Positions 22,049 through 31,662 of a stretch of 64,000 nucleotides of DNA are shown one piece after another (position 1 is the first letter of the stretch; each line of letters starts with the position of its first letter). The notes beneath the pieces are model-generated. The model made no database searches. It worked only from the letters and a program-made list of their open reading frames with translations, and was not told where the DNA came from. The position numbers and the translations under genes were made by a program. Source of the DNA: Lysobacter luteus (GTDB taxonomy: Bacteria > Pseudomonadota > Gammaproteobacteria > Xanthomonadales > Xanthomonadaceae); NCBI RefSeq assembly GCF_907164845.1, contig NZ_OU015430.1, positions 1,292,001 through 1,356,000 on the forward strand, read 5' to 3'.

Positions 22049-24418
<2,370 letters not shown>

Positions 24419-24597
24419 TGCGGTTCTGCCTGCTGGGGAACGGTGAAGCGAGCCGCCGATTGTGGCGATGCCGGTGCGGTCGGGGAACCCGTTGACAGAG
24501 GAGTACAAGCACGGGCAGGTCCCCGATGCGCATCCATCACCGCCACGTGGCGGTGCACCGGGTAGTCTTGCAGGCCTGACGCCGGAGCCGCGGACGC

Positions 24598-27135
24598 ATG
24601 AAGCGCCTTTCCACGACGACGTTGCACAACCTGGGGTTCGTGCTGGTGCTGCTGCTGATCGCGACAATCGCGTGGCAGGGCAAGCGCACCCAGGACGCCC
24701 TGCTTGAAACCAACGACGAGATCATCGATCACTTCGAGCTCATCACGGTGGGCCAAGGCGTCCTGTCCTCCCTCCAGGACATCGAGACCGGCATGCGAGG
24801 TTACGTGCTGACCGGCGAGCCCGAATACCTGGCGCCCTACGACACCGGCCGCGAGAAACTGCTTCGCCAGCGGGCAAGGTTGGGCGAGATCCTGCTTGCG
24901 CGTTCACCGGCCTGGAGCCCATGGCTGGCCCAGCTGGACCGCCACATCGGTGCGCGAATCGGCTCGGCCGCCCTCAACGTCGCCAACCGCGATCGCGCGG
25001 GACCCTTCCGCGACAGGGCGGGGGTCGGCAAGCGGGCGATGGATCGACTGCGCGACATGCTGGGCCGGCTGGAAGCCGAAGAGCGCCGCCACCTGCGCGA
25101 AGAGTCGGCGGCCGTGCGCCACCAGGTCGAGCGCGGACGCCTGTTGGCCTGGGGCGGGGCGCTGGTCATCCTGCTGGTTTCGCTCGGTACATTACTGCTG
25201 ATCAACCGCAACCTGCGTGCCAGGCACGAGGCGGCGCAACGGGCCGAGGCCGGGGAGGCCCGGTTGGCGAAACAGCAGGCCTTCCTGCGCCAAGTTGTCG
25301 ACAGTGACGAGAACCTGATCTTCGTCTGCGACAGCATCGGCCGGATCGATTTGTGCAATATCGCCTTCGCCGATTTCGTGGGCAGGTCGCCGGCCGAGAT
25401 CGAAGGTCGCTCGCCGACCGAACTCGGCATACACGAGGCGCTTGCACCGCTGCTCGACGGAGACGAGGCGATGTTGGCGTCGCGCAAGGAGCTGCGACGT
25501 GGCGAGGTTCCGGTGACCGGGCCCGATGGGGTGATCCGCTGGTTCCAGTTGATCAAGCGGCTGCTGGAGACCGCGGACGGTCGTAGGCAACAGGTAGTGA
25601 CTGTCGCGGTCGATGTGTCGGTTCGGCACCAGATCGCCCAGATGAAGACGGAGTTCATTTCGACCGTCAGCCATGAGTTGCGGACCCCGCTGACTGCGAT
25701 ACGTGGCGCGCTGTCGATGTTGAGCGACGGAACCGCGGGTGCGATCCCCGGTGAAGCGCGGCCGCTGCTGGATATCGCCCTGCGCAACGGCGAGCGACTG
25801 GTCCGCCTGATCAACGACATCCTCGACATCGAGAAGCTGGATGCAGGACGGATCGAGTTGCAACTCGGACAGATGCAGCTCGGCCCGCTGGTGGACCTGG
25901 CGCTCGAGCAGATCGGGCCTTATGCACGCGAGTACGGGATCACCGTACGGCGCATGGATGGCGATGACGCGACGGTGCAGACGGACCCGGACCGGTTTGC
26001 GCAGGTGATGGACAACCTGCTGTCCAATGCCATCAAACACTCACCGGCCGGTGGCGAAGTGCGTGTGGGCGTGCAGCGACAAGGGGACAGCGTTGAGGTC
26101 TCGGTGTCCGACGACGGCGCCGGCATCCCCGAATCATTCCGCCAACGCGTGTTCGAGCGGTTCGCCCAGGCCGATTCTTCCGACGCCCGCCGCCGGGGTG
26201 GCACCGGACTCGGGCTGGCGATCACCCGCTCGCTTGTCGAGCGGTTCGGCGGCCAGATCGGCTTCATCACCGCCGACGGCACGGGCACCCGGTTCCACGT
26301 CCGGCTCCCGGTCATCGCTGCGGATGGCGAGCACGATGATCCGGCCGGTGACATCGACGCGGCGACCGAATCCGGCGCGAACGCCCGGGTGCTGGTGTTC
26401 GAGCGTCGGGAAGACTGCGCGCAGGGTCTGGTCGCCCAACTGCGCCAGCACGGCTACGACTGCGTGGTAGCCGACAGTGCGGCGCTCGCCTGGCGGGTGC
26501 TGGAAGAGCAACATATCGACGCGCTGGTGCTTGCCGTCGGCGGTGAAGGCGAGGGCGGGCTCGGTTTCCTGCGCGTCCTCCGCGACCGCAAGGGCTTCCG
26601 CCACCTTCCGGTGGTGGTGGCCAGCCTGACGGCCAGCGGCGATGCCGCCGATATCGAAGGCGGTGCGCTGGGCGTGGTCGACTGGTTGCGCAAGCCGATG
26701 CAGCCCGAGCGCGTGGTCGAAGCGGTTCGCAGTGTGCTGGGGCGCGATCGCCAGGTCCCCAGCGTGCTGCATGTCGAGGACGATCCCGACCTGCGCGCGT
26801 TGCTGGCAAAATTGTTGCAGGGCGACCGTCTGCACCTGTACCCGGCGGCCTCGCTGGCCGAAGCGCGCGCGCAACTCACGCGGCGCCATTACAGCCTGGT
26901 GATCCTCGACCTGGGGCTGCCCGATGGCGACGGATCGGACCTGTTGGCCGAACTGTCCAACGCGCGGCCGCCGACCTACGTGATCATCTTCTCGGCGCGC
27001 GATACCCCGACGCACGACAATGACATCGTGCTGCGGCATCTGGTGAAGTCACGCCACCGTGCCGCGGAACTGGCCATGCTGGTGAGCAGGTACCTCACGG
27101 AGTGGCCGCAAGGCAGGAACGGAGGAACGGCATGA
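24598..27135 (+). CDS. Hybrid sensor histidine kinase (CHASE3-PAS-HisKA-HATPase-pseudoREC-REC)
   Basis: Membrane sensor kinase heading the glycan-type operon. Of 845 residues: TM1 about 11-27, a CHASE3-like sensor with [18 protein letters not shown] (61-78), TM2 about 183-203, PAS about 228-340, HisKA with phospho-acceptor His359 in SHELRTPL, and an HATPase domain with N box [12 protein letters not shown] (471-482), G1 DDGAGI (505-510) and G2 GTGLGL (535-540). A first receiver-like domain (about 597-712) lacks the acidic pair and the phospho-Asp, keeping only Lys699, so it should not accept phosphate. The last receiver (720-838) has Glu727, Asp728, Asp771 and Lys817. The stop overlaps the next start by 4 bases. 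Confidence 0.92.
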
Positions 27136-27515
27136 CGGAACAGACCCGGCGCTTACTGATGGTGGAGGACGAGGAGGACATCGCCTTCATCCTGCGGTTC
27201 CTGCTGGAGCGCAACGGTTACCAGGTCGACCACGCGGCGGATGGCCGGGTGGCACTGGAGTGGTTGGCCGGCGAAGTGCCGGAAATTGTGTTGATGGACA
27301 TCATGCTGCCGTACCACGACGGAATAGAGCTCGTCGAACGGCTCCGCGCTACCCCGGGCTGGCAGTCCGTGCCGGTGCTGATGTTGTCGGCCAAGGCGCG
27401 CGAGGCAGACATCGTTCGCGCGCTCGAACTGGGCGCCGATGACTACGTGACCAAGCCTTTCCAACCCGAAGAAGTGCTGGCGCGGATCCGCCGGTTGTTG
27501 CGGAGGCCAGCTTGA
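27132..27515 (+). CDS. Single-domain response regulator (CheY-like)
   Basis: 127 residues, receiver domain only, no output domain. Acidic pocket Glu12-Asp13, phospho-acceptor Asp56 in LMDIMLP, switch Ser86 and Lys108 in VTKPF are all present. It overlaps the kinase stop (ATGA at 27132-27135), and its own stop overlaps the presumed TTG start of the barrel gene. As it has no DNA-binding domain, it must act by protein contact, either in a phosphorelay or directly on the membrane proteins encoded downstream; the second option is speculation. Confidence 0.93.
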   Translation: MTEQTRRLLMVEDEEDIAFILRFLLERNGYQVDHAADGRVALEWLAGEVPEIVLMDIMLPYHDGIELVERLRATPGWQSVPVLMLSAKAREADIVRALELGADDYVTKPFQPEEVLARIRRLLRRPA

Positions 27516-28321
27516 GCACCTGTGCCGCACGAGCCAGCCGTACCACGGGTGCGTTGCGGGTTCTGCTGGCGCTGGCTGCGCCGATGGCACACGCGCAGGC
27601 GCAAACGGAGATGCAGGCGTCGACCCCGCGCGAGTCGATCACTATCTCGCATCGCGGCGAATCACCCGACAACGGCCTGCAGGCGTGGAACGCCCAGCGG
27701 CTCGACTACGCGCGGAACCAGCCGGGCAACTGGAGCGTCGGTGCCTCGCTGGTGCGCGAAGCACGCTTCGGCCAGGTCGACGGCGGCGCCGAACTGCGCG
27801 GTGCGCTCAGCGTGGGCGACGGCTGGAGCGTGCAGGGCGAGGTGGGCGCGTTCCCGCATCCGCATTTCCAGCCCGAATGGTTCGCCGATGTGCGGGTCGA
27901 ACGACCGATGGCCCGAGTAGGCGAGGCGACCCTGGTCGGTTCGGCGGGCCTGCGGCGGACCCGCTACCGCGACACTACCGTCGACCGCCTCGCGGTCGGC
28001 ACCGAGGTGTACCGCGGCAACTGGCGTTTTGGCTACACCTTCAACTTGACCCGCGTCGACGGAAGCTCGCTGCCCGGCCATGCGCTCGCCCTGGACCGGT
28101 ATTACGGCGACGACAGCTGGGTGGGATTGCGGCTCGACACCGGCGAGGAAGATGCACTGCTGCCCGGAGACGTCGTTGCAACCGAGATCGACTCGATCGG
28201 CCTGCGCGGACGCCACTGGTGGACGCCGGCCTGGGCGCTGGAATGGGGGGGCGGGCATGTCGCACAGTCGGACTTGTACGACCGCCGCTGGTGGATGCTT
28301 GGGGTACGCCATGCGTTCTGA
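27512..28321 (+). CDS. YaiO family outer-membrane beta-barrel protein
   Basis: Probable outer-membrane barrel. Up to 269 residues if read from the TTG at 27512, which overlaps the regulator's stop; TTG is favoured because the only nearby ATG (27584) lies inside the signal peptide. The signal region ends APMAHAQAQ. The rest is alternating strands rich in Trp, Tyr, Gly and Arg (GGAELRGALSVGDGWSVQGEVG, GNWRFGYTFNLTRVDG), ending WWMLGVRHAF with the terminal Phe typical of BAM substrates. YaiO barrels are known near GT2 genes, as with yaiO and yaiP in E. coli. Proposed role: surface export or anchoring of the glycan made by the GT2. Confidence 0.82.
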   Translation: MSTCAARASRTTGALRVLLALAAPMAHAQAQTEMQASTPRESITISHRGESPDNGLQAWNAQRLDYARNQPGNWSVGASLVREARFGQVDGGAELRGALSVGDGWSVQGEVGAFPHPHFQPEWFADVRVERPMARVGEATLVGSAGLRRTRYRDTTVDRLAVGTEVYRGNWRFGYTFNLTRVDGSSLPGHALALDRYYGDDSWVGLRLDTGEEDALLPGDVVATEIDSIGLRGRHWWTPAWALEWGGGHVAQSDLYDRRWWMLGVRHAF

Positions 28322-28369
28322 TGCCGCGCGCGGCCGGGACCGGGAGTCCCGCCGCGGCGGGACGCGCTG

Positions 28370-29440
28370 ATGTCGGCCTGGTACGACCTCCCGGCGGATC
28401 CGGTGCTGCGGGCCGCGTTTTACCTGGCCTGCGGCCTGGCGCTCGTGACCGTGCTGATCATGGTCCAGGTGCTGGTGCTGTCACAGCTCGCCGTGCGGCG
28501 GCAGCGGGAACGTAAAGCCTTCACCGCAACGTGGCGGCCCATATTGGCCCTCGCCAGCCTTTCCGGGCAGCCGGGCGAAGTGCCGGCGGCGCCGACCGGG
28601 AGCCAGGAACTCTGGTTCCTGATGCTGTGGAACCGCACCCAGCGGCAACTGCGCGGCGACGCCCGTAACCGGCTCAACCAGTTTGCCGTGCAACTGGGGA
28701 TCGACCGTTGTGCCATCGAGCTGGTACGCGGTCGTGGCGTGCGTCGGCAACTGGTCGGCCTGGCGACGTTGCGCTCCCTCGCCGATGAGGCCCATTGGGA
28801 CACGATCGTGGCGCTGGTGGAGCACGCCAACCCGTTCCTGTCGCTCGCCGCCGCCGAAGCGCTGGTCGCCGCCGCCCCCGCACGCGCGATGCAGCGGATC
28901 CTGCCGATCGCGGCGACCCGCCGCGACTGGGCCATCCTGCGCCTGGCCACCGTCTGCCGGCGTGCCGGCCGCGAGGCGGTCACCCAGGCGCTGTTGCCGC
29001 TGCTGCCGCAGGCCGCCGATGCGACATCGCGGCTGTTCGCGATCATCGATTGGGCCGAACCCGCGCGCGTGGCGCCGTGGGCCCGCGATAACCTGGGTGA
29101 CGAGCGCCCGATCGTCCAGCGAACGTCCGCAACCCGGGTGCTTGGCGAACTGGGCGACCCGCGTGACCGGTCGCTCCTGCAGGCCTTGCTCAGCGACCCG
29201 CACCCTGACCTGCGGCTGGCCGCGCTGCGGGCGATGCGCCGCCACTTCTCGTCGGACGATGCCGGGTTGCTGCAACCGCTGCTGGCCGATCCCAGCTGGT
29301 GGGTCCGGCAGGAGGCCGCCGATGCGCTGGTCGCGCTGCCCGGCACCTCGCGTCAGTCGCTGGAGTCGCTCGCGCGCGCGCTGGACGACCGATACGGCCG
29401 CGACGCGCTGGTGCGCGCGCTGGCGGAGCGTCCGGCATGA
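28370..29440 (+). CDS. Membrane-anchored HEAT-repeat protein
   Basis: 356 residues with one N-terminal transmembrane helix (about 14-41, LRAAFYLACGLALVTVLIMVQ) and a cytoplasmic part of paired amphipathic helices. HEAT-like units are visible from about 130 on: RRQLVGLATLRSLAD, NPFLSLAAAEALVAAAP, RTSATRVLGELGDPRDRSLLQALL, DPHPDLRLAALRAMRRHF and DPSWWVRQEAADALVAL. Such repeats serve as scaffolds. It lies 48 bases after the barrel gene and overlaps the GT2 start by 4 bases, so stoichiometric production with the GT2 is likely. Binding of the GT2 or the response regulator is inference. Confidence 0.85.
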   Translation: MSAWYDLPADPVLRAAFYLACGLALVTVLIMVQVLVLSQLAVRRQRERKAFTATWRPILALASLSGQPGEVPAAPTGSQELWFLMLWNRTQRQLRGDARNRLNQFAVQLGIDRCAIELVRGRGVRRQLVGLATLRSLADEAHWDTIVALVEHANPFLSLAAAEALVAAAPARAMQRILPIAATRRDWAILRLATVCRRAGREAVTQALLPLLPQAADATSRLFAIIDWAEPARVAPWARDNLGDERPIVQRTSATRVLGELGDPRDRSLLQALLSDPHPDLRLAALRAMRRHFSSDDAGLLQPLLADPSWWVRQEAADALVALPGTSRQSLESLARALDDRYGRDALVRALAERPA

Positions 29441-30837
29441 GCAACGCGGTGCTCTGGTGGCTGCAACTGGGCTTCATTGGCTATTTCATCGCCCTCAACG
29501 GCGGCTACCTGCTGCTCAACCTGACCTCGATGATCAGCCTGCGCCGCTACATGGCGCTGCGCGCCGACCTTGGCGACGAAGCGCCGTACCTTGGCATCGA
29601 GCCGGCGATCTCGTTGCTGGTGCCGGGCTACAACGAGGAGGCGACGATCTGCACCTCGGTGCGATCGATGCTGCAGTTGCAATACCCCGATTTCGAACTG
29701 GTGGTGATCAACGACGGCTCGCGCGACCGCACGCTGGATGTGCTGATCGAGACGTTCGAACTGGTCCCGTACCCGCAGCCGTTGCGCCGCACCGTCGCGC
29801 ACAAACCCGTGCGCGGGGTCTACCGGTCGCGTCGCCATCCCAACCTGCGAGTGATCGACAAGGAGAACGGAGGCAAGGCCGATGCCCTCAACGCTGGCAT
29901 CAACGCCGCACGGCACCGGCTGTTCTGCGCGGTGGATGCCGATTCGATCCTGCAACGTGACAGCCTGTTGCGGGTCGTGCAGCCGTTCCTTGAGGACGAG
30001 CGCACGGTCGCCGCCGGCGGCACGGTGCGCATCGCCAACGGCTCCGAGGTGGTGGGCGGGTTCCTGCTGCGCGCCGGCTTGCCGGACACGCTGATCGCGC
30101 GCTTCCAGATCGTCGAGTACCTTCGCGCGTTCCTGTTCGGCCGACTGGGCTGGTCGCCGCTCAACGCCGTGCTGATCATCTCCGGTGCATTCGGTTTGTT
30201 CGACCGCCAGCGCGTGGTCGATGCCGGCGGCTACCGCACCGATACGGTTGGCGAGGACATGGAGCTGGTCGTCCGCCTGCACCGCTATCACCGTGAGCGC
30301 CGCATCCCGTACCGTATCCGCTACCTGCCCGATCCGATCTGCTGGACCGAGGCGCCGGAGGACTACGGCACGCTCGGCCGCCAACGCAGCCGCTGGCAGC
30401 GCGGGCTGGCCGAAAGCCTGTCGATGCACGTCGGGCTGGTGCTGGGCGGCCGCGGTGGTGCCGCCGGTTACCTGGCGTGGCCGTTCATGGCGTTGTTCGA
30501 GTGGTTCGGTCCGCTGGTCGAACTGGCCGGTTACGGTTTCATGATCGGCGGTTTCGTCACCGGGGTGGTGTCGCCGGCGGCGCTGATGGTGTTCCTGATG
30601 GTCGCCATCGGCATGGGCATCCTGCTGTCGGTCAACGGGCTGCTGCTGGAGACGCTGTCATTCAAGGTCTACGGCCGCAAGCGCGACATGCTGTCGCTGT
30701 TCGCCGTCGCCGTGCTGGAAAACCTTGGCTACCGCCAGTTCAATACGCTGTGGCGCATCCGCGGCATGTGGCAGTGGTTCACCCGCCGCAAACACCAGTG
30801 GGGTGTGATGCGGCGCAGCGGCCGCTGGAGTAGCTGA
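29437..30837 (+). CDS. GT2 family processive-type membrane glycosyltransferase
   Basis: Inner-membrane glycan synthase of the chitin/hyaluronan/PgaC/cellulose-synthase-like class. Of 466 residues: TM about 7-30; catalytic GT-A domain with LVPGYNEEAT (61-70), VVINDGSRD (89-97), nucleotide-binding DAD at 167-169, acceptor-site GED at 272-274 and the processivity motif QRSRW at 316-320; then three or more C-terminal TM helices (about 345-420). All four D, DxD, ED and QxxRW signatures point to polymer synthesis; donor sugar is unknown. Last gene of the five-gene operon, start chosen at the ATGA overlap. Confidence 0.9.
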   Translation: MSNAVLWWLQLGFIGYFIALNGGYLLLNLTSMISLRRYMALRADLGDEAPYLGIEPAISLLVPGYNEEATICTSVRSMLQLQYPDFELVVINDGSRDRTLDVLIETFELVPYPQPLRRTVAHKPVRGVYRSRRHPNLRVIDKENGGKADALNAGINAARHRLFCAVDADSILQRDSLLRVVQPFLEDERTVAAGGTVRIANGSEVVGGFLLRAGLPDTLIARFQIVEYLRAFLFGRLGWSPLNAVLIISGAFGLFDRQRVVDAGGYRTDTVGEDMELVVRLHRYHRERRIPYRIRYLPDPICWTEAPEDYGTLGRQRSRWQRGLAESLSMHVGLVLGGRGGAAGYLAWPFMALFEWFGPLVELAGYGFMIGGFVTGVVSPAALMVFLMVAIGMGILLSVNGLLLETLSFKVYGRKRDMLSLFAVAVLENLGYRQFNTLWRIRGMWQWFTRRKHQWGVMRRSGRWSS

Positions 30838-30852: not shown

Positions 30853-31662
30853 CTACTTCTCGACGAAGGCCCGCTCGAACACGTATTGCCCCGGTGTGCC
30901 AATCCGGGGCGCCGCGCTGAAGCCGCGGCCGTCGAGCAACGCGCGGAAGTCGGCCAGCATCTGCGGGCTGCCGCAGATCATCGCGCGGTCGTGTTCCGGG
31001 TCCAGTGCCTCGATGCCGAGGTGCTGCATCATCTGGCCGGTCGCCATCATGTCGGTCATGCGGCCACGATGGTCGCGGCCCTCGTAAGTGAAAGCCTCGC
31101 GGGTGACGGCGGGGAAGTAGCGCAGCTTGTCGCCGATCACCTCGCCGAGGAACTCGTGGTGCGGCAGTTCCTTCTCTACATAGTCGCGATAGGCAAGGTC
31201 GCGGGCGTGGCGCACGCCCTGGCACAGGATCACACGCTCGAAGCGCTCGTAGGTTTCCGGGTCCTTGATGACCGACAGCCACGGCGCGAAGCCGGTGCCC
31301 GTGCCCAGCAGGTACAGATTGCGGCCCGGGTGGAGGTCGTGGATCAGCAGGGTGCCGGTGGGCTTGCGGCCGACCAGTACCGGGTCGCCCGGCTTGATGT
31401 GCTGCAGGCGGGAGGTGAGCGGGCCATCGGGCACCTTGATGCTGAAGAACTCCAGCTGCTCCTCCCAGTTGGCGCTGGCGATGGAGTACGCGCGCAAGAG
31501 CGGGCGCGTGCTTCCATCGGCCTGCTCCACCGGCAGCCCGATCATGACGAACTGGCCGTTGTCGAACCGGAAGCCGTCGTCGCGGGTGGTGGTGAAGCTG
31601 AAGTAGTCGTCCGTCCAGTGACGGACGTCGAGCACGGTTTCGGTGCCGAAGGCAGAGGACAT
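30853..31662 (-). CDS. fpr: Ferredoxin--NADP+ reductase
   Basis: FAD enzyme moving electrons between NADPH and ferredoxin or flavodoxin, linked to oxidative stress and Fe-S metabolism. The 269 residues have the FAD motif RAYSIASA (RxYS) near 58-65, the pyrophosphate site HIKPGDPVLVGRKPTGTLL, the NADP site YLLGTGTGFAPWLS and CGSPQML, and the subclass I C-terminal end FVEK as in bacterial Fpr. It converges with the GT2 gene, with only 15 bases between stops. Confidence 0.93.
   Translation of the reverse strand: MSSAFGTETVLDVRHWTDDYFSFTTTRDDGFRFDNGQFVMIGLPVEQADGSTRPLLRAYSIASANWEEQLEFFSIKVPDGPLTSRLQHIKPGDPVLVGRKPTGTLLIHDLHPGRNLYLLGTGTGFAPWLSVIKDPETYERFERVILCQGVRHARDLAYRDYVEKELPHHEFLGEVIGDKLRYFPAVTREAFTYEGRDHRGRMTDMMATGQMMQHLGIEALDPEHDRAMICGSPQMLADFRALLDGRGFSAAPRIGTPGQYVFERAFVEK

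Follow-up and report, generated by a model that had tools for sequence, protein, structure and literature searches.

A five-gene operon of Lysobacter luteus as a candidate signal-gated machine for glycan secretion

The window analysed here, a stretch of 64,000 nucleotides from Lysobacter luteus (contig NZ_OU015430.1), contains a five-gene operon encoding a hybrid sensor histidine kinase, a stand-alone receiver, a YaiO-family outer-membrane barrel, a HEAT protein, and a membrane glycosyltransferase of family 2 (GT2). An open reading frame (ORF) check placed all five genes at their expected coordinates, and the Pfam and NCBIfam domains agree with the gene order given in the first-pass annotation, which a model had made from the sequence letters (Table 1).

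The five genes of the operon

Overlaps of 4 bases are present at the kinase/receiver, receiver/YaiO, and HEAT/GT2 junctions, as annotated before, whereas the 48 bases at the YaiO/HEAT junction, which had been read as a fourth overlap, are a gap (28322-28369). The genome of the window has 12 PF13641 matches, two of which are pieces of the operon GT2, and a single match each to the operon HEAT protein (at 1e-5) and to YaiO. The latter two counts show that the gene combination is specific to this locus. A Pfam search detected no domain for cyclic di-GMP (c-di-GMP) among the five proteins.

Table 1. Features of the operon and its flanks (aa, amino acids)
Feature	Positions	Strand	Remarks
Hybrid sensor histidine kinase	24598-27135	+	845 aa; Pfam: CHASE3, PAS, HisKA, HATPase_c, two receiver stretches
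Stand-alone receiver	27132-27515	+	127 aa from its ATG; nearest models PhoB-type; no output domain
YaiO-family outer-membrane beta-barrel	27512-28321	+	269 aa; TTG start; signal peptide judged by eye
HEAT protein	28370-29440	+	356 aa; HEAT_2; membrane helix at the N-terminus (11-65 in the model) and a solenoid of HEAT repeats, predicted to be cytoplasmic
Membrane GT2 synthase	29437-30837	+	466 aa; hyaluronan-synthase-like fold (model); D/DxD/ED/QRxRW
Leader of the operon, initial part of the cassette that was probably inserted	24499-24597	+	
Left-hand remainder of the ancestral stretch between tex and fpr (GGGGAACCCGTTGACAG-like), common to empty-site congeners	24482-24498	.	By-eye comparison of 9 congener intergenic stretches
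Left flank, tex-like protein	22049-24667	-	True start probably internal: congener matches begin at residues 2-89
Right flank, ferredoxin-NADP reductase-like 'fpr'	30853-31662	-	

For the GT2, the D, DxD, ED, and QRxRW motifs are invariant among 27 aligned sequences, and the AlphaFold2 model built from a 27-row alignment (pLDDT 90) has hyaluronan synthases, those of Chlorella virus and Xenopus, as its nearest solved structures (best E 3e-18; ~17% identity in the structural match), followed by cellulose and chitin synthases. The protein has the GT-A core, the D, DxD, ED, and QxxRW motifs, and the membrane helices of the processive membrane GT2 superfamily. As judged from motifs and model, it looks like a processive-type synthase of the hyaluronan/cellulose/chitin synthase superfamily, and the processive type assigned to it earlier is borne out by both.

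For the HEAT protein, the model (same alignment depth; pLDDT 94.8) consists of a 55-residue first helix followed by a solenoid. Its nearest matches are designed repeat proteins and the PP2A scaffold, with TM-scores so low that no specific HEAT function can be deduced from them. An N-terminal hydrophobic segment is present in 102 of the 104 HEAT proteins of at least 280 aa, and the stretch that follows it is the more positive one in 98, suggesting that the solenoid and the GT domain would lie on the same side of the membrane.

The receiver has the phospho-acceptor D56, the acidic pair E12/D13, S86, and K108. Its best NCBIfam model, PhoB, stays below its cut-off, and no output domain was found by Pfam or NCBIfam, in agreement with the regulator without an output that had been proposed; a receiver also adjoins HEAT-GT2 in haloarchaea. 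As a lone receiver with a full catalytic set, it is a single-domain (CheY/Spo0F-like) response regulator. In the kinase, the first receiver stretch (residues ~597-710) seems by eye to lack the acceptor Asp, and the second retains it. The barrel belongs to the YaiO family, scoring 123 bits on TIGR04390 (cut-off 32) and 67.6 bits on PF19413 (cut-off 23.9); it has 269 aa, and many relatives match over ~400 aa.

Conservation and distribution of the gene set

The survey of related loci was not selected on HEAT, the initial query being the GT2 alone. A scan with the GT2 protein only, one genome per species, gave at least 573 relatives, of which the best 80 were taken and combined with family-level loci, plasmid records (12 of 14 matches used; two from Mesorhizobium left out), and genomes sampled evenly from the class and the phylum. 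After removal of repeats, 112 loci including the window (cited here by L numbers) were scored with iterated profile models. Close relatives are over-represented in this set (23 Pseudomonadaceae rows, mainly Stutzerimonas), several rows are metagenome bins, and some genomes that matched in the class and phylum searches were already in the models (the own genome, L017, L022, L082, and L090).

HEAT was found within 3.5 kb of the GT2 in all 106 loci that have at least 1.2 kb of upstream sequence, nearly always immediately upstream. The two genes share a strand in 104 of 110 HEAT-bearing loci, the ends of the HEAT and GT2 models being separated by 12 bases in the median and by no more than 60 bases in 97; in the remaining six (five Nitrospira rows and L152), HEAT lies on the opposite strand, 1.5 to 3.1 kb from the GT2, beside YaiO. 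Among the 96 loci with full context, HEAT is present in 96, YaiO in 86, and the receiver in 78 by the automatic filter, or 81 with L012, L052, and L095 (double receiver), which the filter missed and which were added by hand. These synteny counts indicate that the genes form one conserved unit, and they answer the concern raised with the first-pass annotation that the five might rarely occur together. The HEAT partner described there is indeed conserved with the GT2, but it is not peculiar to one operon, being the invariant partner of this GT2 clade.

In the reciprocal search, with HEAT alone, 12 of 369 genomes of the class matched, the own genome included; the GT2 is adjacent in 11 of these, and the twelfth ends at a contig edge. 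With the GT2 alone, 13 of 299 genomes of Pseudomonadota matched, again including the own genome, and HEAT is present in all 13. The module is thus rare (3-4% of genomes) but tight.

For the kinase, a match above 200 bits was found within 7 kb in 56 of the 90 wide-context loci, and the receiver is present in all 56. Among the 76 receiver loci, 20 gave no such kinase within 7 kb; weaker kinase-like matches occur in 6 of these, and L119 has annotated sensor kinases. Across the survey, HEAT accompanies the GT2 invariably, the receiver is an input that is common yet dispensable, and the kinase is conserved least. In receiver scans of eight genomes, two of which contributed to the model, the operon receiver ranked first among the matches in six and second in two. 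In a Thiobacillus bin (L087:1339-3576), a CHASE2-adenylate/guanylate cyclase gene lies immediately upstream of the receiver.

YaiO was undetected in the 6/6 full-context loci of archaea and Bacillota (L064, L111, L112, L118, L119, and L120) and was detected in 86 of the 90 others, a distribution that fits an outer-membrane exit and supports the expected tie between YaiO and the outer membrane. When four distant YaiO calls were rechecked in Pfam, L117 had PF19413, and L114, L115, and L121 had tetratricopeptide repeats only. Parsimony on the GT2 tree gave 8 changes for YaiO presence and 6 for receiver presence. Two loci contain, beside the main operon, a second pair of YaiO and a divergent GT2 in which HEAT was undetected (L147:8230-10468 and L148:2182-4475), indicating that YaiO-GT2 pairs of another kind exist.

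HEAT-GT2 spans ten bacterial phyla and the haloarchaea: by row labels, several of them of bins, Pseudomonadota, Nitrospirota, Nitrospinota, Myxococcota, Spirochaetota, Gemmatimonadota, and Fidelibacterota, and by plasmid records Bacillota, Deinococcota, and Bacteroidota, together with the haloarchaea. Three haloarchaeal plasmids have the order receiver, HEAT, GT2 without YaiO. That of Halosolutus contains one additional small ORF, and there a sugar-phosphate nucleotidyltransferase and glmS follow the GT2; these downstream genes hint at an amino-sugar precursor. Two Bacillota plasmids have HEAT-GT2 without receiver or YaiO. In Legionella adelaidensis, YaiO-HEAT-GT2 lies amid a nucleotide-sugar dehydrogenase and epimerases.

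Relation to known systems and the proposed mechanism

The operon had been likened to the plan of PGA and Nfr-type secretion. The likeness in plan, a GT2 with an outer-membrane barrel, holds, but the operon falls outside both systems. PgaABCD, the machine for poly-N-acetylglucosamine (PNAG), shares with it the GT2 and the outer-membrane exit, and among NCBIfam models the operon GT2 matches PgaC/IcaA best; the score, however, is 135.5 bits against an equivalog cut-off of 422.3. A search confined to the five operon proteins detected neither a PgaB-type deacetylase nor PgaD, in place of which the operon has HEAT and the receiver, with no c-di-GMP domain found. A polysaccharide deacetylase was seen near the locus of one relative (L061). 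Similarly, the fold and catalytic motifs are common to the operon GT2, BcsA, and hyaluronan synthase, whereas the CelA model scores 47.1 bits against a cut-off of 699.1 and the GT2 has no PilZ. Nfr-type systems (NfrA/NfrB) have a c-di-GMP-binding domain on the GT2; in contrast, the operon GT2 (P0005) matches GT2 families only, without such a domain. In the E. coli yaiO-yaiX-yaiP region, YaiO is likewise near a GT2, but yaiX and IS2 intervene and no HEAT gene is annotated; YaiP scores 47 bits on the operon GT2 model, compared with 295 (a broken copy) to 862 in the surveyed loci, and is not of the same clade.

Some likenesses were also found in the literature. The xag genes of Xanthomonas and the stalk cluster of iron oxidisers form, like the operon, a patchy, GT2-centred exopolysaccharide cluster, for which transfer has been proposed (PMC4643136), but this cluster was rejected as a match, having a BcsB-XagBCD gene set, and its main text names neither HEAT nor YaiO nor a response regulator. 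EmbRS of Rubrivivax was also rejected, its regulator being DNA-binding and its clusters different ones (PMC3684757). Receiver-GT2 (PF13641) fusions such as MTH_548 of Methanobacteriaceae couple a receiver to a PF13641 glycosyltransferase, a likeness at the family level; they are fusion proteins, and HEAT is unmentioned in the passage on them (PMC5847659). The haloarchaeal HEAT_PBS protein OE2401F of Halobacterium, which is needed for switching of flagellar rotation and interacts with Che proteins, likewise stands between a receiver pathway and a membrane machine, but it serves flagellar switching and involves no GT2 (PMC2666748). Among the papers listed in searches of the open-access literature, most subscription journals being outside this coverage, none was seen to describe receiver-HEAT-GT2 or YaiO-HEAT-GT2 as a system; those listed for YaiO deal, by their titles, mostly with the detection or genomics of E. 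coli. We rate the operon as an apparently undescribed form of synthase-dependent glycan secretion, distinct from PGA, cellulose, and Nfr systems by model scores or domains.

For most known machines of synthase-dependent polysaccharide secretion the switch is c-di-GMP, which plays this role in the cellulose and PNAG synthases. As to the operon, the reading we favour, with a confidence somewhat above even, is that it encodes a signal-gated synthase-dependent glycan secretion machine in which the receiver switches HEAT-GT2 at the protein level. The hybrid kinase would phosphorylate the stand-alone receiver, which would then bind HEAT-GT2 from the cytoplasmic side and switch synthesis; the GT2 and its obligate membrane-anchored HEAT partner would make up the inner-membrane polymerase, and the polymer would leave through the YaiO barrel. 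Our guess is that this polymer is of an amino-sugar or uronic kind. The step from receiver to synthase is suggested by the linkage without a DNA-binding gene among the five, by the archaeal conservation, and by the published receiver-GT2 fusions of Methanobacteriaceae (PMC5847659).

The evidence for this reading consists of the gene set and its linkage, the invariance of HEAT-GT2, the resemblance in fold, the predicted topology, the intact receiver residues, and the cassette-like empty site, from which we infer receiver binding to HEAT-GT2, the sign of the control, the identity of the polymer, and export through YaiO. Several findings weigh against it. The receiver was not found in 15 of the 96 full-context loci. 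Seven of the 83 aligned receivers (L069, L073, L082, L090, L092, L116, and L121, that of L092 being perhaps wrongly assigned) depart from the catalytic set that the other 76 keep intact, which means that phospho-switching cannot be universal. Partial distance correlations over 47, then 46 loci were 0.57 for GT2-HEAT, 0.46 for GT2-receiver, and 0.03 for HEAT-receiver (column bootstraps 0.44-0.62, 0.27-0.54, and -0.04-0.26, respectively). The receiver thus correlates with the GT2 and not with HEAT, which argues, by a crude method, against HEAT as the dock of the receiver; as the GT2 is the slowest and best-measured protein, the correlations may only reflect that it is the best clock. No fusions among receiver, HEAT, YaiO, and GT2 were detected in the surveyed loci. 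Finally, similarity among the more distant HEAT proteins is weak: on a Pseudomonadota-trained model, those of the plasmid rows reach 19-119 bits, and a single-sequence search of plasmids with the window HEAT protein (P0004) gave no match at 1e-10. When distant HEAT rows were rechecked in Pfam, HEAT_2 was found in L112, L117, and L119, and L116 was just below the cut-off; common descent of all the HEAT partners is likely.

In L069, L073, and L082, the acceptor Asp of the receiver is replaced by Glu while the gene is retained in the operon, and these receivers may be fixed in a single state. We weighed whether the altered receivers prove an action independent of phosphorylation, but they are a hint only, since most of the 20 kinase-poor loci retain the phospho-site.

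The receiver could instead be a Spo0F-like intermediate of a phosphorelay that ends at a distant transcription factor; control of the synthase genes would then be transcriptional, and the receiver would never touch the synthase. A hybrid kinase with a single-domain receiver fits such a relay, the kinase bears receiver stretches of its own, and in loci of Mesorhizobium and Devosia an Hpt gene follows closely downstream; on the other hand, the five genes include neither a DNA-binding nor an Hpt gene, the receiver stays by HEAT-GT2 in haloarchaea and across phyla, and the few loci that keep a receiver gene despite an altered phospho-site would not be tolerable for a relay. We consider this explanation unlikely, though it deserves some weight. 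That the receiver acts elsewhere and merely travels in a useful cassette, HEAT being an assembly or stability factor for the GT2, would account for the universality of HEAT but not of the receiver and for the near-zero partial correlation between the two. Its probability appears low in view of the specific kind of receiver in the operon, seen in the eight-genome scans, and of the same neighbourhood in haloarchaea.

It is also improbable, to our judgement, that the GT2 makes a glycolipid or decorates another polymer (a teichoic-like or lipopolysaccharide-linked glycan) with no export of free polysaccharide. Genes of the lipoteichoic acid (LTA)-synthase/sulfatase family downstream of the GT2 and YaiO in Emticicia (L116), L014, and L094 speak for such a role, whereas the fold and the QRxRW motif suggest a processive, channel-forming synthase, and YaiO accompanies it in nearly all full-context loci outside archaea and Bacillota. 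An accidental order of unrelated neighbours, for which only the patchy distribution speaks (in the HEAT homologue search, 8 of 100 genomes and 0 of 9 congeners), is contradicted by the synteny counts and by the empty site in the congeners, and can be regarded as extremely improbable.

Returning to the signal-gated machine, we put forward tentatively, at slightly less than an even chance, that the operon represents an undescribed glycan synthase family, found in the ten bacterial phyla and haloarchaea, with an obligatory HEAT subunit and a lone receiver that directly gates polymerisation in place of c-di-GMP. If so, receiver-HEAT-GT2 would be a second, cross-domain means of fast gating of a glycan polymerase, by phosphorylation; a group of HEAT proteins and of single-domain receivers that are now orphans would acquire a function, YaiO barrels would be given a directly testable export role, and a mobile, self-contained surface-glycan cassette would be predicted.

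Insertion site and neighbouring genes

The flanking genes, a putative tex and a putative fpr, are adjacent in 9/9 congeners, and a HEAT match is absent from all nine. By eye, the intergenic stretches of these congeners share with the window the left remnant and the end of fpr, between which the operon lies in the window only. As tex and fpr stand side by side with an empty site in every congener, a single insertion is simpler than repeated loss, and the operon probably entered as one cassette. Neither tex nor fpr was found in the fetched flanks of 19 other loci (16 of Lysobacteraceae), with the window as positive control. The base composition gave no foreign signature, and no sigma-70-like promoter was scored on the + strand within the leader.

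In the GT2 tree, made by a quick method, the window groups with the Lysobacteraceae rows (support 84), and this group stands beside the Halomonadaceae and Pseudomonadaceae clades (43 rows, support 96), which is consistent with transfer between orders.

Other genes were seen beside the relatives. In one cluster, a protein of 451-575 aa is encoded directly downstream of the GT2 (L069:5631-7358, L073:11370-12725, and L059:11362-12885). Those of L069 and L073 share a DIExYLxPGF-type stretch and have, by eye and from two sequences, the look of a secreted TIM-barrel glycoside hydrolase; Pfam searched to E 5 gave one chance-level row only, and a search of the window's genome with this type (P0006), made without a positive control, gave no match. 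Upstream of HEAT-GT2 on a Planococcus plasmid (L118:1-4754) are genes for a polyphosphate polymerase-domain protein, a DUF4956 protein, a CotH kinase-family protein, and an unknown protein. The sulfatase/LTA-synthase-family genes lie downstream of HEAT-GT2-YaiO at L014:4040-6466, L094:12717-15209, and L116:8679-10646, and perhaps represent a decoration step.

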